Assembly (NCBI RefSeq): GCF_030053345.1
Contig: NZ_JASGBP010000001.1
Coordinates: forward strand, 496,001 to 560,000
Length of the DNA: 64,000 nt
Origin: Flavobacterium sedimenticola
GTDB taxonomy: Bacteria > Bacteroidota > Bacteroidia > Flavobacteriales > Flavobacteriaceae
Reading direction: 5' to 3'
Positions within the stretch are counted from its first letter, which is position 1. Every line of letters begins with the position of its first letter. The notes beneath the pieces were generated by a model, which saw only the letters and a program-made list of their open reading frames with translations, was not told the DNA's origin and did no database searches. Made by a program: the position numbers and the translations under genes. This document shows positions 25,135 through 45,002 of this stretch, one piece after another.

Positions 25135-25193
25135 TTTTTAGTATTTTTATGCAAACTAAATTTGTAACCATTAGTCGAAAAGCACAACAAAAT

Positions 25194-25217
25194 GTGCGTT
25201 TTTGACGTAAAACACAC
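25194..25217. promoter_or_regulatory. Inverted repeat just upstream of the crp start
   Basis: GTGCGTTTT-TGACGT-AAAACACAC: 9-base arms with one mismatch and a palindromic-like spacer, 10 bases before ATG 25228. It could be a second operator (autoregulation) or an mRNA hairpin. Confidence 0.4.
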
Positions 25218-25227
25218 AAAATCAAAT

Positions 25228-25818
25228 ATGCAAATAGACTTAGATTTACTCTTCACTTGGGGTGCCATTGCTAAGGAATATAAAAAAGGCGAAATGATTT
25301 TTTGTGAAGATGAGACAGCCAACTTTTATTACCAAATTATGGAAGGCAGTATCCGAATGTACAATTCGAATGATGACGGTAAAGAATTTACCCAAGGGTA
25401 TTTTCATGAGGGACAAAGTTTTGGGGAACCGCCTTTGTTTATAAATGAATGTTATCCTTCTACGGCAGAAGCTTTCCAGGACAGTGTGATTGTAAAGCTG
25501 TCGAAAGAGAAATTCCTCAAAATATTAGAGGAATATCCGGCCATACAAAAGCAGTTTTTAACATTGATGTCAAGACGTATTCACTCCAAGGCAATGACCT
25601 CCAAAGACATCATTAACCAAAAACCGGAGTTTCGCATCATTGCTTTTCTGAATGCGCATAAAAAAGGAAGAAGCGGATGTGAGAAAGAACAGGTTCCGTT
25701 TACCCGACAAGAGATAGCCAACTTTACCGGATTGCGTGTTGAAACCGTTATTCGCGCCTTGTCAAAAATGGCTAAGGAAAGAAAAGTAGATATCGTTAAC
25801 CATAAAATATATTTCTAA
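25228..25818 (+). CDS. Crp/Fnr-family transcription regulator (nitrogen-oxide/anaerobic)
   Basis: 196 residues from ATG 25228; the frame from 25192 adds 12 residues overlapping an inverted repeat. A cyclic-nucleotide-binding-type beta barrel (about 10-110, with GQSFGEPPLF) is followed by a long dimer helix and a Crp-type HTH (TRQEIANFTGLRVETVIRALS). The recognition helix keeps the Glu-x3-Arg (E..R in VETVIR) of CRP/FNR, but has Val where CRP has Arg180. That fits a TATGA rather than TGTGA half-site. It lacks the N-terminal cysteine cluster of FNR, so it is more likely an NnrR/DNR-like sensor of NO or an unknown ligand. It overlaps the next gene by one base. Confidence 0.88.
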   Translation: MQIDLDLLFTWGAIAKEYKKGEMIFCEDETANFYYQIMEGSIRMYNSNDDGKEFTQGYFHEGQSFGEPPLFINECYPSTAEAFQDSVIVKLSKEKFLKILEEYPAIQKQFLTLMSRRIHSKAMTSKDIINQKPEFRIIAFLNAHKKGRSGCEKEQVPFTRQEIANFTGLRVETVIRALSKMAKERKVDIVNHKIYF

Positions 25819-27095
25819 TGCACTTTAAAGCGAAGTTCTGGTTGCAATTTTCATTACTTAATTTACTCATCGTAGCTTTATTAGGTTTGTTAATGCGCTA
25901 CAAAATCGGTTTTGAGTTTCCGTTTCTGAACCAAAAGAACTTACAACATTCGCATTCTCATTTTGCTTTTGCCGGTTGGATTAGTCATACTTTAATGGTG
26001 TTAATGGTTGGGTTTTTGGAAAAAAGAGGCCCTTCTCCCGAAGCTTCGGGAGCGCTCGGGGTGACAAAAAAAGGACAAGGGTTAAGAATAGCTTTGTATA
26101 ATAAGATGCTAACTGCCAATCTGATTTGCGCCTACGGGATGTTGGTGTTCTTTATCATTCAAGGGTATGCGGCTTTATCGATTGCTTTTTCCACCGCTTC
26201 TATTTTTGTAGCGTATCTTTTTGGTTACCAATTTTGGAACGATTTGAAACAGGTTAGCTCGGAATGGCTTTCGGTGAATTGGTTTAAAGCCGCCATTTTT
26301 TTTAATGTGATTTCTTCCTTAGGCACTTTTTTTTTAGCCTTTATGATGATCACTAAAAATATTCACCAAAACGAATATTTGGCTTCCATTTATTACTACC
26401 TGCATTTCCAATACAACGGTTGGTTTTTCTTTGCGTGTATGGGATTGCTCTTCCATTTTTTTGACCTGAAAGCCACAGCGCATCCTTACTTAAAAAAAGC
26501 ATTTTGGCAGTTTTTTATTGCTTGTATCCCGGCGTATTTTTTATCGACCTTGTGGCTCAATTTACCGGTTTGGATTTATGTCCTGACGGTTTTGGCGGCA
26601 TTATTTCAAAGCTATGCCTGGTTTAAATTGTTGGTGGTTTTGGCTAAAATCAAAAAGGGTTATATTGATAATTATCCGTTCTTTTTGCGTTACATTATTT
26701 TGTTTGTCGCCATAGCCTGCAGCCTTAAATTGTTGTTGCAACTGGGTTCCACCATTCCGGCTTTGAGTCAGTTAGCCTTCGGATTCCGACCAATAGTGAT
26801 TGCCTATTTGCACTTGGTGTTGTTGGCGGTAATTAGTTTGTTTTTGCTGTTTTACATGTATGTGAACCATTACTTTTACATCAGCAAACCGATTAGGTTT
26901 GGTATTATTTTGTTCTCCGTTGGGGTGTTTTTAAACGAATTGGTCCTCGCCGTCCAAGGGATTGCATCATTTAGTTACACCATAATTCCGAGGGTTAATG
27001 AGCTGCTTTTCGGAGTTGCCGTACTACTGGTTTCGGGGATTGCTATTACGACATATCACTCCATAAAAAAAGTTAAAATTCCCCCTGTTTTATGA
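25818..27095 (+). CDS. Heme-copper-oxidase/NnrS-like multipass membrane protein
   Basis: 425 residues and about 12 membrane helices. Histidines sit in helices in a haem-protein pattern: HSHSHFAFAGW (helix 2), YYLHFQYNGWFFF and YLHLVLLAVISLF. They resemble subunit I of heme-copper oxidases and NnrS-type proteins, though a full Cu-B site is not evident. Co-transcribed with the Crp/Fnr gene (one-base overlap), so probably linked to NO response or respiration. Residues about 72-90 (GPSPEASGALGVTKKGQ) are encoded by a REP-like palindrome and look like an insertion in a loop. Its stop codon is part of operator B. Confidence 0.7.
   Translation: MHFKAKFWLQFSLLNLLIVALLGLLMRYKIGFEFPFLNQKNLQHSHSHFAFAGWISHTLMVLMVGFLEKRGPSPEASGALGVTKKGQGLRIALYNKMLTANLICAYGMLVFFIIQGYAALSIAFSTASIFVAYLFGYQFWNDLKQVSSEWLSVNWFKAAIFFNVISSLGTFFLAFMMITKNIHQNEYLASIYYYLHFQYNGWFFFACMGLLFHFFDLKATAHPYLKKAFWQFFIACIPAYFLSTLWLNLPVWIYVLTVLAALFQSYAWFKLLVVLAKIKKGYIDNYPFFLRYIILFVAIACSLKLLLQLGSTIPALSQLAFGFRPIVIAYLHLVLLAVISLFLLFYMYVNHYFYISKPIRFGIILFSVGVFLNELVLAVQGIASFSYTIIPRVNELLFGVAVLLVSGIAITTYHSIKKVKIPPVL
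26035..26066 (+). repeat. REP-like palindrome inside a coding region
   Basis: CTCCCGAAGCTTCGGGAG is a perfect 18-base palindrome (26035-26052), followed by CGCTCGGGGTGACA. The tail resembles the CTCG..TGAC tails of the intergenic repeats at 9901 and 11563. It is translated in frame within the membrane protein gene 25818-27095. Confidence 0.7.
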
Positions 27096-27802: not shown

Positions 27803-27855
27803 AATGAAGCCACTTTCTTTACGTCTCTTTGTACTTCCATTTCAATGCCCATACT

Positions 27856-28293
27856 ATGTTTTCTCCCCGAAAATACCTGCCGGTTTTGCTGCTGTTATTA
27901 CTCTTATTTACAGCCTACAATTATACCCTTTATACCAACCAATCGGATTACGGGAGAATCCGACTTTCCGAAAAAGCGCTGCAAGGCGAAAAACATTGGC
28001 GGGAAAACAATTGCAATGCTTGTCACCAATTGTACGGATTGGGCGGTTATCTCGGCCCCGATTTGACCAATGTGTATTCTTTTAGAAAAAAAGACGGCAA
28101 CTATTTGAAAGCGATGTTCAACAGCGGGGTCAAAGCCATGCCGCGATTTGATTTTAACGAAACCGAAAAGGAAGAATTGCTGCAGTTTTTTATAGAAGTG
28201 GATCAAACCGGAACCTACCCCAACACCAAAGCCACGATTAACCCAGATGGTTGGGTAAAAATCCAATATAAAAAGGAAATCTATGAACACTAA
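27856..28293 (+). CDS. norC: Nitric oxide reductase cytochrome c subunit NorC
   Basis: 145 residues from ATG 27856 (earlier frame positions are not natural starts). One N-terminal membrane anchor (about 6-23). The haem site NCNACHQLYGLGGYLGPDL has CxxCH followed by the NorC-type G-Y-x-x-P-D/E segment, and the distal haem ligand is in the KAMPRFDF region. It passes electrons to NorB in the periplasm. The gene overlaps norB by 11 bases, so translation is coupled, and operator C lies upstream. Confidence 0.88.
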   Translation: MFSPRKYLPVLLLLLLLFTAYNYTLYTNQSDYGRIRLSEKALQGEKHWRENNCNACHQLYGLGGYLGPDLTNVYSFRKKDGNYLKAMFNSGVKAMPRFDFNETEKEELLQFFIEVDQTGTYPNTKATINPDGWVKIQYKKEIYEH

Positions 28294-29602
28294 TCGCTAC
28301 CCGTTTTACTTTATAACCGCCGGATTAGTATCGTTGTTGTTGGGTTTGCTTTGCGGCTTACTCGCCGGTTTTCAGTATGTAGTCCCCGATTTTATCAAAG
28401 AAACGTTACCATTTACCGCGCTGCGACCGTTGCACACCCTTTTTGTGGTGTCCTGGGTTTTGCTCACGGCTACCGGCGGTATTTATTATTATTTGAGTCA
28501 GAATCACAACGAGAGATTATCGAATTCCTTTTTAGTCCAAATTCATTTTTGGATTTTTATCCTAACGGGATTTGGCATTGCTGTATCCTATTTGTTTCGA
28601 AATTTTGCCGGGAAAGAATATTTAGAATTCCCAAGTTATTACTATTTCCCGATAGTTTTGGGCTGGTTGCTATTCGGCATTACTTACTTCAAAACATTGG
28701 CCGCTACTTTCAAGAGTTGGCCGGTGTATTATTGGATGTGGGCCACCGGAATTGGGATGATGATGTACCATTTCACCGAAGCGCATTTGTGGTTGTTGCC
28801 CTATTTTAAATCGCATTTCATACAAAACACGGCCCTGCAATGGAAAGCCGGCGGTTCCTATGTGGGTTCGTGGAATATGTTGGTGTACGGTACTGCTGTT
28901 TATATCATGGCTAAAATGAGTGGCGATGACGGTTACGCCAAATCGGGCAAAGCGTTTTTCTTTTACTTTTTGGGATTAACCAACCTTATGTTTGGCTGGG
29001 CACATCATGTGTATATCGTGCCGACAGCGCCTTGGATTCGTTATTTAGCCTACGGCATCAGCATGACCGAATGGATTATTTTAGCGTCTATGATTTATGA
29101 TTGGAAAAACAATTTGACCCAAGACCAAAAAACCGCTTTTCCCATCGCGCACCAATTCATGCGATTGGCCGATTTTTGGGTTTTTCTCAATATTATTTTG
29201 GCGTTGTTGATATCCATTCCGGCGATTAATTTGTTTACCCACGGAACGCATATTACCGTAGCCCATTCTATGGGAACTACCATCGGTATCAACACCATGA
29301 TATTACTGTCCTCCGTAACGTATATTATAGAATCGAATCAGTGTTCGTTTTCGGGGTCTAAAATCCGATTCGGTATGCGCCTGTTCCAAACTTCCTTTGT
29401 GCTGTTTTGGTGCTGTTTGTTGTTGATGGGTGTCCAAAAAGTACACTGGACTTTCTTCGACAAAACCTTGTCTTTTAGTCAATTCCAGGAGGCGATGCAT
29501 GGGTTTTATTTGGTTTTTGTGCTTTTCGGATTGAGGATTTTTATCGGTCTCTATCGCATCGTATTCGAATTGCTAAACGGTTTGCGCCTATCCCTCAAAT
29601 AA
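28283..29602 (+). CDS. norB: Nitric oxide reductase catalytic subunit NorB
   Basis: 439 residues, 12 membrane helices. Heme-copper-oxidase-like histidines: LRPLHTLF (helix 2), MYHFTEAHLW (helix 6 region), GWAHHVYIVP (two metal-site His) and THGTHITVAHSMGTTIG (haem ligands). The glutamate in FTEAH corresponds to the acidic residue typical of NO reductases. With NorC it reduces 2 NO to N2O at the inner membrane, taking electrons from cytochrome c. Length and helix count fit cNOR. It could formally be a divergent cbb3-like subunit, but the NorC-type partner argues for NOR. Confidence 0.85.
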   Translation: MNTNRYPFYFITAGLVSLLLGLLCGLLAGFQYVVPDFIKETLPFTALRPLHTLFVVSWVLLTATGGIYYYLSQNHNERLSNSFLVQIHFWIFILTGFGIAVSYLFRNFAGKEYLEFPSYYYFPIVLGWLLFGITYFKTLAATFKSWPVYYWMWATGIGMMMYHFTEAHLWLLPYFKSHFIQNTALQWKAGGSYVGSWNMLVYGTAVYIMAKMSGDDGYAKSGKAFFFYFLGLTNLMFGWAHHVYIVPTAPWIRYLAYGISMTEWIILASMIYDWKNNLTQDQKTAFPIAHQFMRLADFWVFLNIILALLISIPAINLFTHGTHITVAHSMGTTIGINTMILLSSVTYIIESNQCSFSGSKIRFGMRLFQTSFVLFWCCLLLMGVQKVHWTFFDKTLSFSQFQEAMHGFYLVFVLFGLRIFIGLYRIVFELLNGLRLSLK

Positions 29603-29610: not shown

Positions 29611-29626
29611 AATGACATATATCATG
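29611..29626. promoter_or_regulatory. Crp/Fnr-type operator, site D (weaker)
   Basis: AATGA-CATATA-TCATG: the inner ATGA/TCAT is perfect, the outer bases differ. A poor -7 match (AAAATTCG, 29648-29655) is at the same 36.5 bp distance, upstream of the flavoprotein gene. Confidence 0.55.
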
Positions 29627-29676: not shown

Positions 29677-31488
29677 ATGACCACTAAAAACGTCCATACT
29701 TTCCACATACCCGTTATGGGATTGGCCTATACCATCGACAGCCCGATTCGCGTAGCACATTACGGCATTTCCTCCGTAATTTCTATTACCGATGACGAAC
29801 TGATTGAAAAAATGCGTGCCTTTTACAGCCGGAAATTCAGTTTGCCTTACCAAGAGATTACCCAAAAATGCCACGATTACCGCGCAGAACGCATCAAACA
29901 TTATTTGAATTTGGTGGATACGATTGTCAAAGACAAGTTTGAACGATTTAAAAACGAATTGGCCGAAAGTAAAATCGCTTTGGAAAACTACATCAGCTTG
30001 TTACCCAATACATCAGAGTTTAAAAACAGCTTGCAAAAATTCATAGACGAAGGTTTGGCTATCAAAGAAAACGTAAAAAGCTATTTGGCCGAACATTTTG
30101 TTCCGGGCAGTATTGATGTGAATATCATGACCAAAGTCGATAAAGAAAATTACGATAAAAATGAACCTTTGCCCGTAGAGTTCAACGATGCGCACGCCTC
30201 TTTGCGCGGTTTTGCCCAAAGCAACCTCACGTCTTCGGTCGTACTTTCGGCCGGAATGAATCCGCGATTATACAGCTATTTCGAGCAGTTTCCGGTGTTT
30301 TATCCGGATGCCGACGGACAATTGCAAAAGAAAATTATACTGAAGGTGAGCGATTTTCGTTCGGCTATGATTCAAGGGAATTTCTTGGCCAAAAAAGGCC
30401 TTTGGGTGTCGGAATACCGTATCGAATCGGGTTTGAATTGCGGCGGACATGCCTTTGCCACCGACGGTTTTTTAATGGGCCCGATTTTGGAAGAATTCAA
30501 AGCCAAAAAAGAGCAACTCATCCAATCGGCGCACGAGCTGATGGTAAAAGCGTTGCAAGCGAAAGATTTGCCCGTTCCGACGAAGCCATTCGACTTAAAA
30601 ATCACGGCCCAAGGCGGTGTGGGAACGGCAGAAGAACACGAGTTTTTATTGCAACACTATGACATGGACGCCGTAGGCTGGGGTTCGCCTTTTTTGTTGG
30701 TTCCGGAGGCGACATCGGTAGATGAAGCAACCCGAACGCTTTTGGCAAAAGCCCAAGAAAAAGATTTTTATTTAAGTGATATTTCGCCCCTCGGCGTATT
30801 GTTCAATACCGTAAAAGGCATGAGCAACGACATTTGGAAGCAAAAGCGCATCGACGAGAACAAAGCCGGAAGCGCGTGTCCGAAAAAGTTTTTGGCACTC
30901 AACAAAGAATACGATCCGCAAGGGATGTGCACGGCTTCTAAAAAATACCAAGATATCAAGTTAGCCCAATTGGAAGCACAAAAAGACCAATTATCAGAGT
31001 CAGAAATTCAGCAAAAACAAGCCAAAATCTTCGAGAAATCGTGTTTGTGCGTTGGTTTGGCGAATGCGTCTTATTTAGAAAACGAGATGGAAGTCAAAGG
31101 GCAGCAACAAGGCGTGGTGATTTGTCCGGGACCGAATTTGGCTTATTTTGACCGCGTGGTTTCTTTGGCCGATATGGTGAAACACATTTATGGCAATGCG
31201 AACGTGTTGGCCGATAATAACCGTCCGCATATGTTTATCAAAGAGTTGAAAATGTATGTGGATTACCTCAAAAACGAATTAGATACGTTTACCGATGACT
31301 TTACGCCGGCCCAACTCAAAAAATGGAATGCCTTTAAAAGCAATTTGCTTTCGGGCATAGCGTATTACTTGGATTTGTTTGCGCAGCGTGATTTTTTTAC
31401 CCAAGAAAAGAAGCGCATTCAGCAGCAATTAGGGTGGTATAAAGCTGAAGTAAACCGGATTGAAATTCCGGTTTTAGAACAGGTTTAA
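29677..31488 (+). CDS. Nitronate-monooxygenase-like FMN TIM-barrel protein with cysteine-rich C-terminus
   Basis: 603 residues from ATG 29677. The N-terminal part (IPVMGLAYTIDSPIRVAHYG) opens a barrel. NCGGHAF (Cys255) aligns with the EAGGH loop of nitronate monooxygenases, and KITAQGGVGTAEEHEFL (311-317 region) with VGWGSPFLLVPEA matches the FMN phosphate-binding end. A helical insertion occupies about 60-170. The C-terminal 200 residues are not NMO-like and contain Cys401, Cys418, Cys456, Cys458 and Cys483, which could hold an Fe-S cluster. Preceded by a Crp/Fnr operator and placed between norB and anaerobic RNR. Not a named family to my knowledge; the substrate is unknown. Confidence 0.7.
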   Translation: MTTKNVHTFHIPVMGLAYTIDSPIRVAHYGISSVISITDDELIEKMRAFYSRKFSLPYQEITQKCHDYRAERIKHYLNLVDTIVKDKFERFKNELAESKIALENYISLLPNTSEFKNSLQKFIDEGLAIKENVKSYLAEHFVPGSIDVNIMTKVDKENYDKNEPLPVEFNDAHASLRGFAQSNLTSSVVLSAGMNPRLYSYFEQFPVFYPDADGQLQKKIILKVSDFRSAMIQGNFLAKKGLWVSEYRIESGLNCGGHAFATDGFLMGPILEEFKAKKEQLIQSAHELMVKALQAKDLPVPTKPFDLKITAQGGVGTAEEHEFLLQHYDMDAVGWGSPFLLVPEATSVDEATRTLLAKAQEKDFYLSDISPLGVLFNTVKGMSNDIWKQKRIDENKAGSACPKKFLALNKEYDPQGMCTASKKYQDIKLAQLEAQKDQLSESEIQQKQAKIFEKSCLCVGLANASYLENEMEVKGQQQGVVICPGPNLAYFDRVVSLADMVKHIYGNANVLADNNRPHMFIKELKMYVDYLKNELDTFTDDFTPAQLKKWNAFKSNLLSGIAYYLDLFAQRDFFTQEKKRIQQQLGWYKAEVNRIEIPVLEQV

Positions 31489-31489: not shown

Positions 31490-32164
31490 TTACCGAAACA
31501 TAATTTTCAGATTCGGATTTTCGGGGAGTTGGTGTTCCAAACGATTTCGGGAGTCCGGTAGTTGACCTATGGTTTCGACGTTATTTCGGAAATGCTGAAT
31601 GTAATACGTTCCGGTGTATTCGTTGTATTTGAGGTAGTCAATCATGTCATGGAGTTCTTCTTTCGCCAGTAATTCCGAATGATACGTGGTGCGTACTTCA
31701 AAAGGAATATTGGCGTTCAGTAACAATTGCAGCGATTTTTCAAATTGGTCGAACAAATCCGATTGGGTAATGGTGGAAAATGACTCTCGGTTCGATTTAA
31801 AATCGAGTGCGACATAATTGAGTAAATCCTGCTCAATTAAAGTTTTCAGCACTTCGGGTTTGGAACCATTGGTGTCTACTTTGACTAAAAAGCCCATGGT
31901 TTTCACCGTTTGAATTTGCTCGACGATGTCTTTGTGGAGCAAACATTCGCCACCGCTGAATACTACGGCATCGAGCAAGCCTTTCCGACTTTCCAAAAAA
32001 GAAATCATTTCGGGAAAGGAAAATTTTCCTTTCCCGAAAACAATCTCCGGATTGTAGCAATACAAACACCGCATATTACAACCGGCATACCACAAGATAC
32101 AGGCAGTCTTATTCGGATAGTCCAGCAGTGTGAACGGTGTTATATTGCTGACCGATTTAACCAT
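31490..32164 (-). CDS. nrdG: Anaerobic RNR activating protein NrdG (radical SAM)
   Basis: 224 residues. The radical SAM cluster motif is CNMRCLYC (CxxxCxxC), with GGECLLH in the SAM-binding GGE position. It uses a 4Fe-4S cluster and S-adenosylmethionine to install the glycyl radical on the anaerobic reductase. It starts 3 bases after the stop of the 52-residue glycyl-radical gene, so it is in the same operon. It is longer than minimal NrdG proteins (about 155) and resembles the longer TIGR02495-type activases. Confidence 0.9.
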   Translation of the reverse strand: MVKSVSNITPFTLLDYPNKTACILWYAGCNMRCLYCYNPEIVFGKGKFSFPEMISFLESRKGLLDAVVFSGGECLLHKDIVEQIQTVKTMGFLVKVDTNGSKPEVLKTLIEQDLLNYVALDFKSNRESFSTITQSDLFDQFEKSLQLLLNANIPFEVRTTYHSELLAKEELHDMIDYLKYNEYTGTYYIQHFRNNVETIGQLPDSRNRLEHQLPENPNLKIMFR

Positions 32165-32166: not shown

Positions 32167-32325
32167 TTAACTTTCTTTAAAATGGAGGCGTTGTTTGTGT
32201 TCGCCTTTTTTACCGATGTTGAAACTTTCTACCGGACGATGGTAACCCATTACTCGGGTGTACACCAGGCATTTGGTGCGCAGTTCTTGGTGTTGCTCCA
32301 GCACCGTGTTAGTTTTGGTTTTCAT
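32167..32325 (-). CDS. Separately encoded glycyl-radical tail of anaerobic ribonucleotide reductase
   Basis: 52 residues, ATG to TAA. The segment TRVMGYHRPVESFN then IGKKGEHKQR matches the extreme C-terminus of classic NrdD (E. coli RRVCGYLGSPDARPFN then AGKQEEVKRR), with the radical glycine in MGY. The upstream NrdD lacks this part. It overlaps the end of nrdD by 17 bases in the +1 frame and ends 3 bases before nrdG. I therefore read it as the radical-bearing domain of a split class III reductase. Confidence 0.82.
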   Translation of the reverse strand: MKTKTNTVLEQHQELRTKCLVYTRVMGYHRPVESFNIGKKGEHKQRLHFKES

Positions 32326-34423
32326 ATTTATTTTGGTTTAGTTTATCTAATAAAGCATCGTCACATTTCGGGCAAAATTCGTGTTCGCCGTTGAGGTAAC
32401 CGTGCACCGGACAAATACTAAATACCGGCGTTACGGTGATGTAAGGCAATTTGAATTTCGATAGCACGGTTTTGACAAAGTTTTTGCAAGCTTCGGGCGT
32501 GCTGATTCTTTCGTTCATGTACAAATGCAGCACGGTTCCGCCGGTGTATTGACACTGCAATTCGTCTTGCATCAATAAAGCTTCAAACGGATCTTGGGTA
32601 AAATCTACCGGAATTTGCGAGCTATTGGTGTAGTAAATATTCTCGTCGCCACCCGCTTGTAAAATGTTCGGATAGCGTTTTTTGTCTTCTTTCGCAAAGC
32701 GATAGGTAGTACCTTCTGCCGGTGTGGCTTCGAGGTTGTATAAGTTTCCGGTCGCTTCCTGGAATGCTCTCATGCGATTGCGGATGTGGTGTAAGATTTC
32801 CATCGAAAAGTCATGGCCGAATTGTGAGGTAATGTCTTCTTGGTCATTGGTAAAATTGCGAATCATTTCGTTCATGCCGTTCACCCCAATGGTGGAAAAG
32901 TGATTGCGGAAATGTGGCAAATACCTTTTGGTATAGGGATACAAACCTCTATCGTACATTTCCTGAATGAATTGTCTTTTTTTCTCTAATGTCGATTTGG
33001 CCAACACCATCAATTCGTCCAATCGGGTGAAAAGCGCTTCTTTATCGCCTTCATATAAGTAGCCCAAACGGGCCATATTGATAGTGACTACGCCAATGCT
33101 TCCGGTCATTTCGGCACTACCAAACAAACCGTTCCCGCGTTTGAGCAATTCGCGCAAATCGAGTTGCAGGCGACAGCACATACTGCGTACCGCATTGGGT
33201 TTGTAGGCATTTGGGTTTTCCATTTTATTGCCGTTTTCGTCTGTAGTATATTGACTTCCGATAAAATTCTGGAAATACGACGAACCGATTTTAGCCGTGT
33301 TTTCAAACAGCAATTCGGTGTTTTCGCCGTTCCAATCAAAATCTTCGGTGATGTTTACAGTCGGAATCGGGAAGGTGAACGGTTGGCCGTTGGCATCGCC
33401 TTCGGTCATTACGGTATAATAGGCTTTGTTAATCAGATTCATTTCGGTCTGAAAATGCTCGTAACGCAGCTCGGTTAAGCTTTCCACACCGCGTTCTTGG
33501 GCACGAGCCAAAATCGTTTCATCGGTTATTTTTTCAAATAAATGCCGGTCATTTTTGGTCGGAATTTGTGCTGCCAAATCGGCCGGGACTACCCAATCTA
33601 AGGTAATGTTGGTAAAAGGCGATTGGCCCCAGCGTGCCGGAACATTAAGGTTGTACACAAAACTGCGAACGGCTTTAAGTACGTCTTCAAATGACAAATT
33701 ATCTTTAAAAACGTAAGGCGCTAAATAGGTGTCAAACGAACTGAACGCTTGGGCACCGGCCCATTCGCTTTGCAAGATTCCGAGAAAGTTGGCCATTTGT
33801 CCTAAGGCTTCTCTGAAATGCGATGGTGCTTTGCTTTCTACCCGACCGCGAACACCGTTGAAACCGTCATTAAGCAAAACCCTCAAACTCCAACCTGCGC
33901 AATAACCGGTTAAACAATCCAAATCGTGGATGTGGATGTCACCGTTACGGTGGGCATACCCTTCTTCTTTGGAATACACTTTATCCAGCCAATAATTGGC
34001 AATGATTTTTCCGGCCACATTGTTCACCAAACCCGCATTGGAATACGAGGTATTGGCATTGGCATTGATACGCCAATCGGTTTGGGCAATGTATTCTTCG
34101 ATGGTTTGGGTGCTGTCGACATAAGTGGTATCGTCGTTCAATCCTTGTACGTGTTCGCGTTGCAGTTTTCGCGTATGGCGGTACAACATAAACGAACGCA
34201 TTACCGTGAAATAGTGATTGTTAAAAAGCACTTTCTCGATAATGTCCTGAATTTCTTCGACGGCCCAAGTATCCCTGGTGTTTATGTCGGCAATGACTTT
34301 TTCAAAAACACGCTCATCAAACGGAAGTGAAACGCTGGTAAAGCTCTTGACTATCGCATCCTTTATTTTAAAAGGTTCAAAAGGTTTATAATCTCCGTTT
34401 CTTTTGATGACATATTTTTCCAT
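32309..34423 (-). CDS. nrdD: Anaerobic ribonucleoside-triphosphate reductase NrdD, catalytic part lacking the glycyl-radical end
   Basis: 704 residues from ATG 34423. An N-terminal ATP cone (about 1-95, YVIKRNGDYKPFEPFKI) precedes the ten-stranded barrel (NLNVPARWGQSPFTNITLD, GVVTINMARLGYL). The C-terminal zinc-type finger is CPVH then CPKC. In other NrdD proteins the glycyl-radical strand follows about 10-20 residues after the last CxxC; here the protein stops at NQNKYENQN. The radical segment is in the overlapping downstream gene. It makes dNTPs without oxygen. Operon ric-nrdD-tail-nrdG, controlled by operator E. Confidence 0.93.
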   Translation of the reverse strand: MEKYVIKRNGDYKPFEPFKIKDAIVKSFTSVSLPFDERVFEKVIADINTRDTWAVEEIQDIIEKVLFNNHYFTVMRSFMLYRHTRKLQREHVQGLNDDTTYVDSTQTIEEYIAQTDWRINANANTSYSNAGLVNNVAGKIIANYWLDKVYSKEEGYAHRNGDIHIHDLDCLTGYCAGWSLRVLLNDGFNGVRGRVESKAPSHFREALGQMANFLGILQSEWAGAQAFSSFDTYLAPYVFKDNLSFEDVLKAVRSFVYNLNVPARWGQSPFTNITLDWVVPADLAAQIPTKNDRHLFEKITDETILARAQERGVESLTELRYEHFQTEMNLINKAYYTVMTEGDANGQPFTFPIPTVNITEDFDWNGENTELLFENTAKIGSSYFQNFIGSQYTTDENGNKMENPNAYKPNAVRSMCCRLQLDLRELLKRGNGLFGSAEMTGSIGVVTINMARLGYLYEGDKEALFTRLDELMVLAKSTLEKKRQFIQEMYDRGLYPYTKRYLPHFRNHFSTIGVNGMNEMIRNFTNDQEDITSQFGHDFSMEILHHIRNRMRAFQEATGNLYNLEATPAEGTTYRFAKEDKKRYPNILQAGGDENIYYTNSSQIPVDFTQDPFEALLMQDELQCQYTGGTVLHLYMNERISTPEACKNFVKTVLSKFKLPYITVTPVFSICPVHGYLNGEHEFCPKCDDALLDKLNQNKYENQN

Positions 34424-34457
34424 GATGAGCGTGGTTTTTAGGTTAGATTGAATTTGA

Positions 34458-35186
34458 TTAAGCAATATTGAATTTGGCTTCCATAGCCTGCGCTTTAGGG
34501 AACACAATATTGTTTTCCAAGTGGATGTGCTTGTGTAAATCCTGTTCGAATTCTTTCAGCATGGCAAAAGTCACGCGGTAGGTTTCACAAGCATCGGCCG
34601 GCGGGTTGTAGTCGTCGGTTAATTTAGCAATCAAGCGGAAGCGTTCGCCTTCGTTTTCGTGCTCGCTTTGCATCATGGCAATCGGATTGTCAACGGTACC
34701 GAAGTGGGGTTGCTCAATAGCCGTGTTTTCTGTTAAAGCGTAATACATTTTTTTGACAAACGGGAACAAAATCAGCTCTTCTTTTTTCATGTGTTGGGCC
34801 AATTCTCCGGCGCAAATTTTGAAGTGCAAGGCAATTTCAAACAGTTCCGGATGGCGCTGTCCATGGACTTTGCAGAGCTTGTCAAGGTAGAATAGTAAGG
34901 CGGTTGATTTTTCTTCTACATAACGATGGTGCGTTTTTTCGATGTAATCGATTAATAAGTCGATGGGCCAAGATTTAAAATCGATGTTGTTATCCGATTT
35001 CGATTCTAAAACAGCCATCAATTCATCTTGTATGGTATGGACATTAAGTCCTTTTTTTTCGCAAACTTCGTCTAAAGTCCGGTTGCCTTTGCAGCAAAAA
35101 TCGATACCATATTTAGAGAAAACCGCAGCTGTTCTGAAATCACCCGCTACAAATTCTCCTACGGTTATTTGATCTAAAGCATTCAT
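34458..35186 (-). CDS. ric: Iron-sulfur cluster repair di-iron protein Ric (ScdA/YtfE)
   Basis: 242 residues. The N-terminal ScdA_N domain (VGEFVAGDFRTAAVFSKYG, IDFCCKGNRTL) is followed by a hemerythrin-like four-helix bundle. Its di-iron ligands are visible as KTHHRYVEE, QRHPELFE, HMKKEELILFP, SEHENEGER and HKHIHLENNIVFP. It repairs Fe-S clusters damaged by NO or oxidative stress in the cytoplasm. First gene of the nrd operon, with a perfect TAATTTTG -7 element (35224-35217, minus) set 37.5 bp from operator E. Confidence 0.93.
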   Translation of the reverse strand: MNALDQITVGEFVAGDFRTAAVFSKYGIDFCCKGNRTLDEVCEKKGLNVHTIQDELMAVLESKSDNNIDFKSWPIDLLIDYIEKTHHRYVEEKSTALLFYLDKLCKVHGQRHPELFEIALHFKICAGELAQHMKKEELILFPFVKKMYYALTENTAIEQPHFGTVDNPIAMMQSEHENEGERFRLIAKLTDDYNPPADACETYRVTFAMLKEFEQDLHKHIHLENNIVFPKAQAMEAKFNIA

Positions 35187-35305: not shown

Positions 35306-36241
35306 ATGCCCATGGAAAATTTAAAAGCGCAAATTCTTCGATTGAAGAAGGAGAAAAATGCCGTGATTTTAGCCCATTATTACCAGCAACCCGACATCCA
35401 GGAAGTAGCCGATTATGTGGGCGACAGTTTGGGATTATCGCAGGAAGCCGAAAAAGTACATGCCGATATTATAGTGTTTGCCGGTGTACATTTTATGGCT
35501 GAAACCGCCAAATTATTGAATCCGAAAAAGAAGGTTTTGCTGCCCGACTTGAAGGCCGGTTGTTCGTTGGCCGATTCGTGTCCGCCCGATATTTTTAAAA
35601 AGTTTGTGGAAGCGCATCCCAATCATGTCGTGATTACGTATGTGAATTGCTCGGCCGAAATCAAAGCACTGAGTCATTTGGTTTGTACTTCTTCCAATGC
35701 CGAAAAAATTGTCAATTCGGTACCCGAAAACATCCCGATTATTTTTGCGCCCGATAAAAATTTAGGGAATTACATCAACCAAAAAACCGGGCGACAAATG
35801 CTCCTTTGGGACGGCAGTTGCGTGGTTCACGAAGCATTTTCTTTGGACAAACTTATTGCGCTTCATAAAGAACATCCGAATGCCGCCATCATTGCACATC
35901 CCGAATCGGAACCCCATATTTTGGAAACGGCGCGTTATATTGGCTCGACTTCCGGGATGATTGACTACGTGAAGCAAAGTCCGAGAACCGAATTTATTGT
36001 CGCCACGGAGGCCGGCATTTTATACAAGATGCAGGAAGAAGTGCCCGATAAAATCTTAATTCCCGCGCCGGCTATGGAAGACAATACGTGTGCGTGCAGC
36101 GAATGTGCGTATATGAAACTCAACACGCTCCGCAAATTATATGACTGTTTGGTTAATGAAACGCCCGAAATAACCGTTCCGAAAGCGGTGGCCGAAAAAG
36201 CCATTGTACCTATCCAACGCATGCTTGAATTGTCGAAATGA
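35306..36241 (+). CDS. nadA: Quinolinate synthase NadA
   Basis: 311 residues. The family pattern [18 protein letters not shown] is near the N-terminus, the three cluster cysteines lie in [19 protein letters not shown] and the C-terminal [13 protein letters not shown], and HPESEPH is present. It condenses iminoaspartate with dihydroxyacetone phosphate to quinolinate using a labile 4Fe-4S cluster. The start MPMENL is used; the second Met, two codons on, is possible. It overlaps nadB by 4 bases. Confidence 0.96.
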
Positions 36242-37788
36242 TGAAGATAGAAACCGATTATTTGGTCTTAGGTTCAGGGATAGCCGGACTGACAGTTGCT
36301 ATCAAATTGGCGCAACAATTTCCGGAGCGAAAGGTATTGATTGTCACCAAATCCAACGAAGACGAGTCGAATACCAAATATGCCCAAGGCGGCATTGCTG
36401 TGGTGACGGATGGGGTGAGCGACGATTTTGAAAAGCACATCGACGATACTTTGGTGTGCGGTGATGGGTTGTGCCATCGAGCAGTAGTGGAAATGGTGGT
36501 GAAAGAAGGGCCGAAACGCTTGGCCGAACTCATTCAATGGGGGACGCAATTCGATGTAAACGACACGGGAAATCTCGATTTAGCCAAAGAAGGAGGTCAT
36601 TCCAATTCTCGAGTCGTACATTATAAAGACCAAACCGGGCGTGAAATTGAGCGCGCTATTTTGGCCAAAGTCCATCAGCAACCCAATATTGAAATCCTCG
36701 ATTTTCATTTTGCCACTGATTTGATTACGGACCAAAATGCGTGTCACGGCGTTTGGGTTTTGGATGAAAAAACCAATAAAATTTTCCCGATTTTCTCTCG
36801 TTTTACCATTTTGGCTACCGGTGGCATCGGGCAAGTGTATCAGCAAACGACCAATGCTACAATAGCTACCGGCGATGGGATTGCGATGGCGATTCGGGCC
36901 AAAGCCAAGATTCGCGATATGGAGTTTATCCAATTTCACCCAACGGCATTGCATGCGCCCAATTCAGCTTCGACTTTTTTGATTTCGGAAGCAGTTCGCG
37001 GTTTTGGGGCGTATTTGAGAACCAAAAACGGTCGTCGGTTTATGTTGGATTACGATGTTCGCGGCGAATTGGCGTCGCGTGATATCGTGTCGAGAAGCAT
37101 AGCAACCGAACTCAAAAAATCGGGTGACGACTGCGTGTATTTAGATTGTACGCATTTGGATCAAGTTGAATTTCAAAAGCATTTCCCGACGATTTATCAG
37201 AATTGTTTGTTGGAAGGCGTTGATGTCGCCACAACATGGATTCCGGTGCTACCGACCCAGCATTATTTGTGTGGCGGTGTGGATGTGGATTGGAACGGAT
37301 TAACTTCTATTAACCGACTATTCGCTTGCGGCGAATGTTCCCGAACCGGTTTGCATGGGGCGAACCGCTTGGCGTCGAATTCGCTTTTGGAAGCTTTAGT
37401 GTATGCGCATCGGATTTATACCTATCTCAGCGAAACGGATTCGGAACACACATTGATTTCGAAAACTATTCCAAGTCATTACCCTCAAAAAGCCAAAAGT
37501 GTTTCCTCCGCATGGGTATCGAAGCATCGGGAAGCACTGCAAAACCTTATGCAGCAAAATGCCGGGATTGTTCGGCACGATATCAATTTGAAAAACACCT
37601 TAAAGCAATTGCAACTTTGGAAAAACGAGTGTCGGGAAAAGGAACGGGAATTCGCCGTGACCAAAGATTTTTTGGAATTGAAAAACAGTATTGAGGTTAG
37701 TATTCCGATTGTTGCTTTTTCCTTAAAACGCCACGAAAACAAAGGCAGTTTTTATAAAGAAGGCCAAACTATAAACCTCCAATTCTAA
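36238..37788 (+). CDS. nadB: L-aspartate oxidase NadB
   Basis: 516 residues. The FAD-binding dinucleotide motif [14 protein letters not shown] lies at about 13-26, with [28 protein letters not shown] and [15 protein letters not shown], all typical of the NadB/SdhA flavoprotein family. It oxidises aspartate to iminoaspartate for NadA, using O2 or fumarate as acceptor. The ATG at 36238 overlaps nadA; an adjacent ATG at 36241 is equally possible. Its last 20 bases overlap the convergent CopD-like gene. Confidence 0.96.
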
Positions 37789-38212
37789 CCCAACTGCCTA
37801 AGATTAGCATCGCTACGCCAATCACCGTAATGGCGATAATTTGAAAAGCCACCGGACGTAGCTTATCGGATTTGATTTTAGGGAAGACAAACAATTGCGC
37901 ATTAATAGCCATACCAACAGTAAGGAAAAGCAGTAGCAATTTGGCAGAAACCACTTTTTCGATACCATTGGAAAACGAAAACCAATGGGTAAAAGTGACG
38001 CCGTAATGATACGCCATCAGTATGCCGGTGACTAATAAAGTCAGTAACGACGGTAAGCCTACCGGTTCGAATTTGTTTTTAAAATTGACCAAAACTGAGG
38101 CATCTTTCTTTTTCAAGGCTTCGGGTAAATAGCGAATGGCCAAAAAAAGATGACCGCCTACCCAAACGGTCGCGGCCAGTAAATGAAAGACTAAAATAAT
38201 TTGGTGTGTCAT
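37769..38212 (-). CDS. CopD-like four-helix membrane protein
   Basis: 147 residues, four membrane helices. The first helix carries FHLLAATVWVGGHLFLAIRYLP, with His in the pattern of CopD/PcoD (copper) or haem-binding membrane proteins, and YHYGVTFTHW in the second loop. Last gene of the nosZ-led operon, overlapping the truncated globin gene by 4 bases. Copper import or a membrane haem role in N2O reductase assembly is an inference from operon position. Confidence 0.8.
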   Translation of the reverse strand: MTHQIILVFHLLAATVWVGGHLFLAIRYLPEALKKKDASVLVNFKNKFEPVGLPSLLTLLVTGILMAYHYGVTFTHWFSFSNGIEKVVSAKLLLLFLTVGMAINAQLFVFPKIKSDKLRPVAFQIIAITVIGVAMLILGSWVRIGGL

Positions 38213-38583
38213 GTGCTTAAGGTTTTGTACATCATGGCGGCGGAAATATTCAGCGCGCGGTTTTTGATTTCCTCGGCTTTCGGACCTTCAAACAGCTTGT
38301 CTACGGTTTCGGTGAATAATTTATTCCAATGTCCGAAATGCGTCGGGTTCATCGGGCTTTTTTCGTGTAACTCTTTGTGACGGGCCATTGGATTGCCTTC
38401 GTAATTTCCGGTAAAGAAAAGAATGTTTTCCCAAAAATTGTACATTTTGGGCAGATGGTTTTCCCAATTGACCTGAGCCACATCGTTGAATAAATAACCG
38501 ATAACCTCGTCGGTTTTTACTTTGTCGTAAAAGGCGTTGACCAATTTCTCGATGTCTTTGCGGTTTCGGATATCGGTTTTCAT
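38209..38583 (-). CDS. Group III truncated haemoglobin
   Basis: 124 residues. Group III pattern: DIEKLVNAFYDKVKTDEVIGYLF, then NFWENILFFTGNYEGNPMARH with the proximal His, and HFGHWNKLFTETVDKLF. A cytoplasmic haem protein; members are suspected of handling NO, cyanide or sulfide. It sits tightly between nosY (one-base gap) and the CopD-like gene (4-base overlap), which supports a link with nitrogen-oxide metabolism. Confidence 0.92.
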   Translation of the reverse strand: MKTDIRNRKDIEKLVNAFYDKVKTDEVIGYLFNDVAQVNWENHLPKMYNFWENILFFTGNYEGNPMARHKELHEKSPMNPTHFGHWNKLFTETVDKLFEGPKAEEIKNRALNISAAMMYKTLST

Positions 38584-38584
38584 G

Positions 38585-39352
38585 TTACAAATCTTTTTGG
38601 TTGAATTTTTTCAGTGAGATAAAAAACGGAATAATGGCCCACAAGCACAGTAGTAAAAATGAGATGACTAAACCGACTGCGGTTCCGAAGAAATCCTGAA
38701 AAATGGCTCCCGTGTAACCCATCATGGCCGAAACATCCAAGTGCATCAAAATTTGAATGCGGGCCAAATCAATAGGGCTCAAAGCGGTCATGGCCACCAT
38801 GGCGTGTTCGATAGGATAATCGGCCAATTGGAACAATAAGAATAACACGATACCGTCGAACAATAAGGCAAAGAACAACCAAGTCATGATAGCAATTCCG
38901 ATACCTTTGGCTTTGTCGCGCGTTAGGATGGAACTCAAAAAAGCTAAGGCAACAAAAATGACTGAGATTAAACAACCCACGATAATCATCATGAATCCGA
39001 CACTGTCGGGGGCATTAATCAGCAACGGTATTCCGGCACCGATACCAAAAGCCAACACCATAGAAAGAGATAATCCCAAGAACAAACCGGTCCAAATTTT
39101 TCGGCGTTTGATGGGTTGGCTGAGCAGCAGTTCAATGAATTCCGTACTGTTGTATAAGTAAATAGTGGCGAACAAGATGGAAACCAAGGGTACGGTGAAC
39201 AGAATTACGTTGAGGATGGTGAGCAATCCTTTGGCCGAATTGTCTTCTAAAACAAAAGAACTCCATGACAGTGCGGCTAAAATCAAGGTATAGGCCAACA
39301 CGATTTTGTTTTTGAGGATGTCGAGTAAGATGATTTTAATGATGCGGTTCAT
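38585..39352 (-). CDS. nosY: Nos ABC transporter permease NosY
   Basis: 255 residues, six membrane helices with an ABC2-type permease pattern. Typical segments include LYNSTEFIELLLSQPIKRRKIW and LTRDKAKGIG, and the C-terminus ends ISLKKFNQKDL. With NosF and NosD it forms the complex that supplies sulfur or helps build the Cu-Z centre of N2O reductase. It overlaps the 3' end of nosF by 17 bases, an overlap created by the repeat-derived NosF tail. Confidence 0.88.
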   Translation of the reverse strand: MNRIIKIILLDILKNKIVLAYTLILAALSWSSFVLEDNSAKGLLTILNVILFTVPLVSILFATIYLYNSTEFIELLLSQPIKRRKIWTGLFLGLSLSMVLAFGIGAGIPLLINAPDSVGFMMIIVGCLISVIFVALAFLSSILTRDKAKGIGIAIMTWLFFALLFDGIVLFLLFQLADYPIEHAMVAMTALSPIDLARIQILMHLDVSAMMGYTGAIFQDFFGTAVGLVISFLLLCLWAIIPFFISLKKFNQKDL

Positions 39353-40091
39353 GGTGAGTTTCGGGTTTCGGGTTTCGGGTTTCGGGTTGTTTGGCTTTTA
39401 GGATGCTGGCAATGGCTTTGGAGATTCTGGTTTCGTTGGTTTCGGCTTTGATAACCATTACATTTTTATGGAAATGCACTTGGCCTTCCTGCATAAAAAT
39501 AATCTCGGTAATTAAGTCGTCGAGTTCGCTGAGCAAGTGCGAGGTAATGAGAATGAGTTTGCCTTTTTCTTTTTCGCGTATGATTTTTTCTTTTAAAATT
39601 TCGGACGCCAGCGGATCTAAACCGGCGGTAGGTTCGTCTAAGATTAAGACATCGGGATTGAATAAAAAGGCCAAAACCGCACTGACTTTTTGGGTCGTTC
39701 CGCCCGAAAGGGTTCGCATTTGTTTGTCAAACATTTTTTCGAGTTCAAAAGCGCGGATGAGTTCTTCGTCTAATTCGGGGGCTGTAGGACGTACTTTTTT
39801 GATCATTTCTATAATTTGACCAATGGTCATATTGTCGGGATAACGCCCAATTTGCGGCATATAGCCTATGTTATTTCGGTACAAATAATCACCGAGTATA
39901 GATTTTCCATTGAACATAATCGAACCGCTGTTGGGAATCACCATGCCTAAAATCGATTTGATTAAAGTGGTTTTCCCGCAACCGTTAGGTCCGATGAGGG
40001 CAATGCATTGGCCTTTTTGGAACGAAAGGGTAATGTCTTGTAATACGGCTAATTTGCCGAACTTTTTGTTTATATTTTGTATGGTTATCAT
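39336..40091 (-). CDS. nosF: Nos ABC transporter ATPase NosF
   Basis: 251 residues from ATG 40091. A frame 26 codons longer exists but encodes repeat DNA. Walker A GPNGCGKTT, Q-loop YMPQIG, signature LSGGTTQK, Walker B VLILDEPTAG, and switch His in LITSHL. It powers the NosDFY complex. The last 16 residues (PETRNPKPETHHEPHH) are encoded by a TTTCGGG heptamer array and are not part of the ABC fold. Confidence 0.92.
   Translation of the reverse strand: MITIQNINKKFGKLAVLQDITLSFQKGQCIALIGPNGCGKTTLIKSILGMVIPNSGSIMFNGKSILGDYLYRNNIGYMPQIGRYPDNMTIGQIIEMIKKVRPTAPELDEELIRAFELEKMFDKQMRTLSGGTTQKVSAVLAFLFNPDVLILDEPTAGLDPLASEILKEKIIREKEKGKLILITSHLLSELDDLITEIIFMQEGQVHFHKNVMVIKAETNETRISKAIASILKAKQPETRNPKPETHHEPHH
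39359..39386. repeat. Heptamer array (TTTCGGG)x4
   Basis: Four perfect tandem copies on the plus strand (AAACCCG direction on the coding strand), entirely inside the 3' end of nosF. The same heptamer family appears around 40099-40160. Confidence 0.9.
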
Positions 40092-40094
40092 AGT

Positions 40095-40166
40095 TTGTTG
40101 CGGGTTTAAAGTTGCGAGTTTCGGGTTTAAGGTTTCGAGTTTTCTAACCCGTAATTCGTAACTTTC
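40095..40166. repeat. Degenerate heptamer repeats left of the four-helix-bundle gene
   Basis: Units such as GCGGGTTT, GCGAGTTT, TCGGGTTT and TCGAGTTT (40100-40140) run into the opposite-sense units AACCCGT-AATTCGT-AACTTT (40147-40165), giving a diffuse inverted arrangement between nosF and the four-helix-bundle gene. Confidence 0.7.
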
Positions 40167-40170
40167 CAAC

Positions 40171-40563
40171 TTATTTATCGAACTTACTTCCTTTATGGTC
40201 TGACTTTATCAGATAGGACATGAATGAACCTATTTTTTTACTTGCTGTTATTGTTTTTTCTTTTAAAAATTCAAACTCTTCTTTACTGATGTGTTTTCTA
40301 TCAAATGCTCTGTGTAATTGAGATCGTAATTCGCCGCAAGAGCCTTTTGAGTAGCTTAAAAAATTAATAAATTCTCTTCTACCGTTTCTTTCAAATCCTT
40401 CCGCAATATTGTCCATTATCGAACCTGAAGATCTGTTCATTTGATTTCTTAATTCGAAATCTTTTCCTAATGCTGTTTTTTCAAATAAATCCCATATGTG
40501 ATTACAAATTTCTCTGCTTAATTGCCAGATTTCCAATTCTTCAAAAGTATTTATAGTAGCCAT
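40171..40563 (-). CDS. Four-helix-bundle protein (S23 / 23S rRNA intervening-sequence / Avd-like family)
   Basis: 130 residues. Family signature: FEELEIWQLSREICNHIWDL, then NQMNRSSGSIMDNIAEGFERNGRREFINFLSYSKGS, and ELRSQLHRA. The fold is a pentameric helical barrel in the S23 and Avd families, with a positively charged nucleic-acid-binding face. It is inserted between nosD and nosF (gaps of 99 and 79 bases), whereas most other neighbours in the nos operon overlap. Members are found in rRNA intervening sequences, diversity-generating retroelements and scattered chromosomal sites; no reverse transcriptase is nearby here. Probably a mobile passenger unrelated to N2O reduction. Confidence 0.9.
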   Translation of the reverse strand: MATINTFEELEIWQLSREICNHIWDLFEKTALGKDFELRNQMNRSSGSIMDNIAEGFERNGRREFINFLSYSKGSCGELRSQLHRAFDRKHISKEEFEFLKEKTITASKKIGSFMSYLIKSDHKGSKFDK

Positions 40564-40640
40564 AGAAAGTAAATTATAGTTTATTTCTACAATTTTAGTA
40601 TATTTTTCTTACAATATGAAATTAATCATTTCTACTCCAC

Positions 40641-40663
40641 CTATAACTCGCAACCCGTAACTT
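40641..40663. repeat. AACYCG-type repeat right of the four-helix-bundle gene
   Basis: AACTCGC-AACCCGT-AACTTT, nearly identical to AACCCGT-AATTCGT-AACTTT at 40147-40165. The two lie in direct orientation on either side of the gene. Confidence 0.65.
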
Positions 40664-41892: not shown

Positions 41893-42320
41893 GGATAGGT
41901 ATTGTAAACTTCAGACCAAGTTAGGGTTTGAGCCCCCAGTTTTTTGGCGTATTCGCCTTGTTGTGCAGCGGTAGAAAACGCCGCCATATTGCCTCTCATG
42001 GGCGAATTAATTTTATCGCTTTTGATAAAAAAGGCAGATTCGACTGAAATCAGGGTATTGTCTTTTAAATAATCGTTTACAAAAAAGGATTGATAAGGCA
42101 CCACCGTATTCGATTTGGCAAATTGTACCATACAAGCCAGGTCATCAAACTTATAATAGCGTCCTTTTTGAGTAATTAGTTCGGCTCCGAATTTCCCATT
42201 GGCAATGGTCATCTTGCAAAAATCACAAGAATCAATATTTAATTTAATGGGTTTGGGTTCATTGGAACCGCAAGAGATTAAGGTTAGTAATGTGATTAAT
42301 GATAAAGCAAAAGTTCTCAT
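41889..42320 (-). CDS. nosL: Copper chaperone lipoprotein NosL
   Basis: 143 residues. The lipobox ends LISC. The hallmark CDFCKMTI is present (CxxC plus Met ligand of the NosL Cu(I) site), followed by FGAELITQKGRYYKFDDLACM. NosL delivers Cu(I) for the N2O reductase centres. Four-base overlaps with both neighbours show tight coupling. Confidence 0.95.
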   Translation of the reverse strand: MRTFALSLITLLTLISCGSNEPKPIKLNIDSCDFCKMTIANGKFGAELITQKGRYYKFDDLACMVQFAKSNTVVPYQSFFVNDYLKDNTLISVESAFFIKSDKINSPMRGNMAAFSTAAQQGEYAKKLGAQTLTWSEVYNTYP

Positions 42321-42907: not shown

Positions 42908-42917
42908 TGCATTAGGA

Positions 42918-42951: not shown

Positions 42952-42959
42952 GGTTAATT

Positions 42960-44939: not shown

Positions 44940-44962
44940 TGTAATTGATTTTAAATAAGATT

Positions 44963-44994: not shown

Positions 44995-45002
44995 GTTTTG
45001 GT

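Follow-up and report, generated by a model that had tools for sequence, protein, structure and literature searches.

A putative flavo/iron-sulfur protein family of Bacteroidota resembles FabX and, in close relatives, lies behind a conserved Crp/Fnr-type operator core

FabX of Helicobacter pylori (HP0773), an acyl-acyl carrier protein (acyl-ACP) dehydrogenase/isomerase, is a nitronate monooxygenase (NMO)-family enzyme with a C-terminal [4Fe-4S] subdomain ligated by four cysteines, C300, C304, C308, and C320; this subdomain is suggested to replace the NAD(P)H-binding motif of FabK, FabX is described as the sole characterized NMO-family enzyme with a cluster, and no acceptor besides O2 is said to have been found (PMC8626469). 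Here we describe a FabX-like protein of 603 amino acids encoded in Flavobacterium sedimenticola, in a 64,000-nucleotide stretch of contig NZ_JASGBP010000001.1 (positions 496,001 to 560,000), the whole of which is called the window. We tentatively favor the reading that it is a flavin mononucleotide (FMN)- and [4Fe-4S]-containing enzyme of the FabX group that functions under low-oxygen or nitric oxide (NO) conditions, possibly on acyl-ACP for the synthesis of unsaturated fatty acids. The gene and its elements are placed in the window as follows:

29677..31488, plus strand, gene for the FabX-like flavo/iron-sulfur protein, 603 amino acids, in a reading frame open from 29638
29794..30096, plus strand, predicted helical segment inserted between strands 2 and 3 of the barrel, roughly residues 40 to 140 (secondary structure of an AlphaFold2 [AF2] model)
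30121..30123, plus strand, Asn149, invariant, aligned with the FMN contact Asn99 of FabX (FabX residue from PMC8626469)
30358..30360, plus strand, Arg228, invariant, aligned with Lys152 on the ACP-facing helix of FabX (FabX residue from PMC8626469)
30424..30450, plus strand, loop E250-S-G-L-N-C255-G-G-H258, in which the invariant His258 aligns with the catalytic His182 of FabX
30784..30795, plus strand, S370-P-L-G motif, in which Ser370 aligns with Ser273 of FabX, the residue that hydrogen-bonds the catalytic His
30877..31125, plus strand, C-terminal cysteine region with C401, C418, C456, C458, and C483, candidate Fe-S ligands (from their invariance and the alignment of C-L-C with FabX-type proteins)
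29613..29624, no strand assigned, Crp/Fnr-type operator TGACATATATCA with core TGAYNNNNRTCA (from upstream conservation)

The ATG at 29677 was preferred as the start over 29638 because relatives begin there.

The protein belongs to a real, very conserved, and unnamed family for which there is no adequate Pfam or NCBIfam model, in agreement with the original prediction, made from the DNA letters, that it was undescribed. No model of either collection reached its cut-off with the window protein. PF03060 (nitronate monooxygenase) gave no match to it at expectation values (E) up to 10 and was not among the 25 listed, in order of member number, of 48 Pfam families that were weakly matched by 48 diverse members at E up to 1; TIGR02814 (PfaD) and TIGR03151 (FabK) matched neither the window protein nor the 48 members at the same respective thresholds. 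The member scans gave scattered weak matches, to 16 families in all in NCBIfam, the best being NF001645, "hypothetical protein" (17 of 48 members; best E, 1.6e-5), which scored 14.1 bits with the window protein against a cut-off of 162. CagZ, IL3, and apolipoprotein, names that appeared among the weak Pfam and Protein Data Bank (PDB) matches, were dismissed as fortuitous similarities of helical parts. A pairwise PDB search with the window protein returned no FabX match at E up to 10.

Of 296 Bacteroidota genomes distributed across the phylum, 112 held a member, as did 36 of 60 relatives; the F. sedimenticola genome is included in both counts and holds a single copy. The best match per genome shared 44 to 73% identity with the window protein over most of its length, apart from the gene itself and a fragment of 41% identity at a contig end in genome G346. 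The best 80 of 179 relatives in a contig search all carried Bacteroidota names, and viral contigs, plasmids, and phages yielded no relatives. A literature search reaching few subscription papers returned, as a weak statement, no report of such a family, whether from Flavobacteria or from other facultative Bacteroidota. Asn149, Arg228, Cys255, His258, Ser370, Cys401, Cys418, Cys456, Cys458, and Cys483 were invariant in all 165 distinct members, which were drawn from 175 rows over 550 amino acids long, the window gene included, with the truncated rows L110 and L158 dropped. L110 (genome G053, contig 1, positions 4371164 to 4372913) is a broken second copy in a genome that also has an intact one. 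The five C-terminal cysteines lay exactly where the original prediction had placed them, and the GGH loop, AQGGVGT, and the segment GWGSPFLLVPEA that it had cited were all present; a sixth cysteine, C255, is found in the NCGGH loop.

Comparison of sequence profiles linked the family to FabX-type proteins and not to NMO or FabK. Against an alignment of 18 FabX-type proteins (A4), the family profile scored 54.3 (E, 4.3e-6; probability, 86.8) over 270 columns that begin ahead of strand 3 and end at the CLC motif, and the barrel part alone scored 53.5; shuffling the columns of A4 100 times gave no score above 28.8, and reversed A4 reached 19.2. Against 18 NMO and FabK proteins (A3), the score was 21.7 (E, 0.094; probability, 0.6), within the range of 50 shuffles of A3, which scored up to 23.9, and an alignment of close relatives (A1) compared with NMO/FabK gave an E of 0.33. 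In PDB searches with FabX-type proteins, L209 matched FabX at 8.6e-27 and FabK at 2.6e-11, and L252 matched FabX at 3.1e-71 over nearly the whole length, cysteines included; FabX-type proteins also matched TIGR03151, below its cut-off.

When mapped through L209, H182, S273, N99, and K152 of FabX corresponded to H258, S370, N149, and R228, so that the catalytic His, its Ser partner, and an Asn in contact with FMN are all represented by residues invariant throughout the family. The further FMN contacts E175, Q240, and T243 aligned with S251 (adjoining the invariant E250), G334, and S/T337. On the ACP-facing alpha-7 helix, ungapped alignment paired K152 with R228 (78 of 78 rows), I156 with I232 (73 rows), K159 with K235 (50 rows; Asn in the window protein), and R164 with K240 (75 rows); thus, four of the five residue classes at K152, I156, K159, R160, and R164 were kept in the family majority when the helix was aligned ungapped, the profile alignment itself having gaps inside the helix. 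A barrel of the FabX type with FMN is very probable.

The original prediction had regarded the cysteine-rich C terminus as foreign to known NMOs, which proved incorrect. The C-terminal cysteines have a precedent because FabX carries a [4Fe-4S] subdomain there; their spacing is new. H. pylori FabX has an NMO-type TIM barrel, the aligned His, Ser, and Asn, a basic residue where the ACP-facing helix starts, and a cysteine region C terminal to the barrel, as does the family, but it has 363 rather than 603 amino acids, lacks the helical insertion at residues 40 to 140 and a C-terminal helical extension, reads QMAT where the family has GWGS, and spaces its cysteines by 3, 3, and 11 residues, compared to 16, 37, 1, and 24 in the family. 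The Bacteroidota FabX-type proteins L209, L210, and L254 (419 to 426 amino acids) match the barrel profile and share cysteines at N-C, at G-K-C (G-H-C in L254), and at C-L-C, which stands in K-T-C-L-C in these proteins and in K-S-C-L-C in the family. C401, C418, C456, and C458 lay opposite or beside C319, C332, C358, and C360 of L209, a correspondence that is firm only for the CLC pair. However, these proteins are shorter, have six C-terminal cysteines (C319, C332, C358, C360, C368, and C371, in 16 of 16 proteins of A5, which is A4 without L252 and L253), and come from genomes that lack the 603-residue family (no overlap with the 112). The cysteine spacing of L209 (1456 to 2712), L210 (1147 to 2424), and L254 (805 to 2082) also departs from that of H. 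pylori FabX. An Fe-S cluster in the C-terminal region of the family appears probable. UfaA (NGO1024) of Neisseria gonorrhoeae, a bacterium that denitrifies, is also among the known systems nearest to the family. A FabX homolog is treated in PMC11300592.

The AF2 model, built from 67 close sequences including the window protein, had a predicted TM score (pTM) of 0.81 and eight barrel strands, which suggests a TIM barrel of the NMO superfamily, the fold of FabX, in which FMN would be bound. Its helices at residues 68 to 140, between strands 2 and 3, and 267 to 295, before strand 7, agree with the large helical insertion noticed in the sequence earlier. The NMO-type FMN barrel of the original prediction is thus upheld as a modeled fold, but the profile points to FabX and not to nitronate monooxygenases. 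Foldseek ranked PfaD first (7.1e-8), followed by FabK (5.8e-5) and NMO (8.7e-4). The top row of VIA-align 2 was FabX (7e1q; Z, 20.9; 280 residues aligned; root mean square deviation, 3.2), with a trans-acting enoyl reductase (4yx6; Z, 20.8), PfaD (4z9r; 20.6), FabK (19.9), and 2-nitropropane dioxygenase (2gjl; 19.6) next. The Z scores are nearly tied, and therefore the fold alone makes no choice among these families. The C-terminal part predicted alone was poor (mean predicted local distance difference test [pLDDT], 58.9; pTM, 0.44).

Upstream of the FabX-like gene, the palindrome ATGACATATATCAT, which contains the operator core, ends 51 bp before the start. Of 113 distinct 150-bp upstream regions of relatives with at least 60% identity, that of the window included, 108 contained the core TGAYNNNNRTCA (mean of 20 shuffles, 1.0; largest, 3), which lay at -85 to -60 in 104 of them. 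Among distant relatives it was present in 11 of 52 upstream regions (shuffles: mean, 0.35; largest, 2), at -85 to -60 in 5 of the 11. Counts without deduplication in 250-bp regions were 114 of 120 close and 11 of 54 distant. Control by a Crp/Fnr-family regulator at low oxygen or under NO is highly likely in the close relatives; the signal is proposed because of the regulator family and the genes under the same control. In the window, the core was found ahead of the Crp/Fnr gene (25121), the norC-type gene (27789), the FabX-like gene (29613), the RIC gene (35249), and the cytochrome c/nosZ genes (45544), as well as at 345, 16064, and 45043. These 8 sites compare with 3.26 expected, and 8 were reached in 1 of 100 shuffles; on its own, this enrichment is weak. 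The original prediction that an operator of the Crp/Fnr set precedes the gene is supported by TGACATATATCA, the core of which is the one before the RIC and cytochrome c/nosZ genes.

Across the 296 genomes, the family went with the iron-sulfur repair protein RIC and not with the norB-type gene or the anaerobic ribonucleotide reductase NrdD. Of the 112 family-positive genomes, 75 had a RIC match over cut-off, as did 33 of the 184 negative ones (odds ratio, 9.3), and the association held within 14 taxonomic families (Mantel-Haenszel odds ratio, 6.2; P = 1.7e-5), in tables that cover the families and genomes entered into them and omit two families with no positive genomes, which carry no weight. 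This within-family test aside, the co-occurrence counts ignore phylogeny. NrdD (E up to 1e-30) was found in 9 of 112 positive and 10 of 184 negative genomes, with no overall association. It was seen afterwards that the 8 genomes with an NrdD at 532 to 548 bits, like that of the window, and G255 (358 bits) were all family positive, and that the 10 genomes with an NrdD at 633 to 675 bits were all family negative. Genes like the norB-type gene of the window (E up to 1e-20) occurred in 3 positive and 2 negative genomes, 5 of the 296 in all. A desaturase (E up to 1e-15) was found in 83 of 112 positive and 82 of 184 negative genomes. FabX-type genes (searched with L209 at E up to 1e-15, a search that also retrieves L252 and L253) were found in none of the 112 positive and in 64 of the 184 negative genomes; 63 of these 64 had no desaturase hit and 8 had NrdD. 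Neither a FabX-type gene nor a desaturase was found in 39 negative genomes.

The neighboring genes in the window are as follows:

25192..25818, plus strand, Crp/Fnr-family regulator
27829..28293, plus strand, norC-type cytochrome c gene (named by eye; only weak cytochrome matches)
28283..29602, plus strand, norB-type gene with a COX1 domain, 439 amino acids, ending 74 bp upstream of the FabX-like gene
31490..32164, minus strand, NrdG-type radical SAM activase (TIGR02495 over cut-off)
32309..34507, minus strand, NrdD, anaerobic ribonucleotide reductase (model over cut-off)
34458..35186, minus strand, RIC/ScdA iron-sulfur repair protein (TIGR03652 over cut-off)

The NrdG, NrdD, and RIC genes lie downstream and converge with the FabX-like gene. 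The position between norB and the anaerobic ribonucleotide reductase given in the original prediction is correct as gene order, but no model confirmed the name norB: Pfam gave COX1, and the NCBIfam match was limited to ccoN, whose 40 bits fall far short of the cut-off of 583. The norC and norB names were given by eye, norB also in the original prediction. The order of norB-type and FabX-like gene recurred at locus L204 (genome G249, from another family of the phylum), with a gap of 66 bp; in G346 contig ends truncate both genes, which is compatible with the same order and is not proof of it. NosZ was identified at 42960 to 44939 (TIGR04246, 930.6 bits; cut-off, 625), adjoined by genes that by eye resemble nosL, nosD, nosF, and nosY. 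With its nosZ cluster, globin, RIC, and nrdD/nrdG genes, the window resembles a compact denitrification island. The globin gene and the nosZ cluster occupy 38209 to 45555, with the TGAYNNNNRTCA site at 45544 ahead of the cytochrome c/nosZ genes. Directly behind the Crp/Fnr gene, on the plus strand, is a gene for a 425-residue membrane protein (25818 to 27095) that had no Pfam or NCBIfam match and clustered in 17 loci near the FabX-like gene (16 besides the window, in two taxonomic families). Genes nadA and nadB also recur nearby (35306 to 37788 in the window; 4718 to 7289 in L204), the nadA-type cluster being present in 28 loci including the window.

Neighbors were clustered over 127 loci plus the window (79 near and 48 distant). 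Of the 79 near loci, 33 had a respiratory or stress cluster within five genes; of the 48 distant loci, 12 had one and 36 had none. The counted set (Crp/Fnr, RIC, Rrf2-type, NrdD, NrdG, norC/norB-type, NosZ-type, FixI/CcoNO-type, HemN-type, cytochrome c peroxidase-type, and a few more) was picked after looking, with names mostly given by eye, and the counts had no shuffled control.

The original prediction proposed an enzyme for a nitro compound, an NO-derived product, or an anaerobic redox step. The operator and RIC bear out a link to low oxygen or NO, but nothing was found for a nitro compound or NO-derived substrate. The NMO-superfamily fold, with NMO or nitroalkane-oxidizing structures at Z scores of 16.7 to 19.6, the shared GGH motif, and a norB-type gene preceding the FabX-like gene in two distant lineages would fit a nitronate monooxygenase or a detoxifying enzyme of this kind. 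We consider such a function improbable, as PF03060 gave no match to the window protein, profile similarity to NMO and FabK was within the null, the norB-type gene is far rarer than the family, and a separate 345-amino-acid protein of the genome matches a nitronate monooxygenase structure at 6e-59. The invariant columns of A3 hold no cysteine, another difference from the family. A nitro-compound enzyme was rejected on PF03060 and the NMO/FabK profile score. A function tied to the norB-type gene was rejected as well: the family is far more widely distributed (112 genomes compared to 5, 3 of them shared), and therefore a nor-specific role fails the test of co-occurrence with nor/nos genes that the original prediction had set, of which the nor side was examined. 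An enoyl reductase like PfaD or FabK that reduces its substrate with NAD(P)H would agree with the Foldseek ranking and with Z scores of 20.6 to 20.8 for PfaD and trans-acting enoyl reductases, tied with FabX. It seems very improbable, given the lack of TIGR02814 and TIGR03151 matches among the 48 members and the invariant cysteines in the region where, according to PMC8626469, the Fe-S subdomain of FabX stands in place of the NAD(P)H motif of FabK; no polyketide or polyunsaturated fatty acid synthase genes were recognized by eye beside the gene. Identity with PfaD was rejected, despite the best Foldseek match, on TIGR02814.

It is possible, if somewhat doubtful, that the protein is a FabX-related FMN/[4Fe-4S] oxidoreductase for a substrate other than acyl-ACP, such as that of another O2-dependent biosynthetic step or a redox by-product formed under NO stress. 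The helical insertions, the NCGGH loop with invariant C255, and GWGS in place of QMAT suggest a different pocket, and the RIC association and the recurrent neighbors, mainly respiratory and stress genes where present, are in keeping with such a role. On the other side, the enzymes to which the profile leads are of the FabX type, and R228, I232, K235, and K240 keep their class on the ACP-facing helix if it is aligned ungapped.

Several observations weigh against an acyl-ACP enzyme of the FabX group. FabX contacts E175 and Q240 are replaced by S251, with E250 one place off, and G334, and the FabX ligand pattern C300-x3-C304-x3-C308-x11-C320 is not found, the family having another spacing; the protein is therefore filed as a FabX-like variant and not as FabX. 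The C-terminal region alone scored 27.4 over 15 columns, a borderline value exceeded by 1 of 50 shuffles, and when L252 and L253, the proteins closest to H. pylori FabX, were omitted (A5), the E rose to 0.0016 and the probability fell to 15.7. The AF2 model is poor over much of residues 366 to 482 (pLDDT below 50 at 366 to 392, 395 to 410, 415 to 422, 453 to 463, and 473 to 482), and the operator core is absent from 41 of the 52 upstream regions of distant members. No fatty acid genes were recognized by eye among the neighbors, in a partial output covering the first 60 to 70 residues of genes within three places. A desaturase hit is missing from 29 of 112 positive genomes, and therefore desaturase backup cannot be the whole story; a single taxonomic family (f31) supplies 60 of the 64 FabX-type genomes, and therefore the mutual exclusion of FabX-type genes and the family may reflect phylogeny. 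H. pylori FabX requires O2 as the acceptor, for which an anoxic role would need a replacement.

On the reading that we favor, an enzyme of the FabX group, the protein would be produced in response to low oxygen or NO, by way of the Crp/Fnr operator. Four of the five C-terminal cysteines would ligate the cluster, and His258, held by Ser370, would act as the base beside FMN. Hydride would pass from the substrate to FMN, and the cluster would hand electrons on to an acceptor other than NAD(P)H. The most likely substrate would be a medium-chain acyl-ACP, whose dehydrogenation and isomerization would introduce the cis double bond found in unsaturated fatty acids; in this way, Bacteroidota that otherwise rely on desaturases could still form unsaturated lipids when O2 is short. 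The analysis establishes the family, its conservation, the conserved operator core, the co-occurrence with RIC, and the profile link to FabX; the barrel comes from a model, and the cofactors, the signal, the direction of the reaction, the substrate, and the acceptor are inferred. The acyl-ACP substrate and the role in unsaturated fatty acid synthesis are, taken by themselves, plausible but uncertain.

The family places a protein with six invariant cysteines and no adequate Pfam or NCBIfam model in 112 of 296 Bacteroidota genomes. Its resemblance to FabX and a control site common to genes of denitrification and Fe-S repair suggest that it may allow membrane lipid synthesis at low oxygen. More speculatively, it could represent a phylum-wide, unnamed class of FabX-like FMN/[4Fe-4S] enzymes providing an oxygen-sparing route to unsaturated fatty acids in facultative Bacteroidota, switched on by Crp/Fnr along with genes for denitrification and Fe-S repair, and using an acceptor other than O2 and a new ligand pattern. 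If the protein is an analogue of FabX, it would explain how bacteria with O2-dependent desaturases keep their membranes fluid during denitrification or at low oxygen, it would add a further Fe-S ligand pattern beside that of FabX, and the electron acceptor of anaerobic FabX homologs would become testable in harmless bacteria of soil and water.
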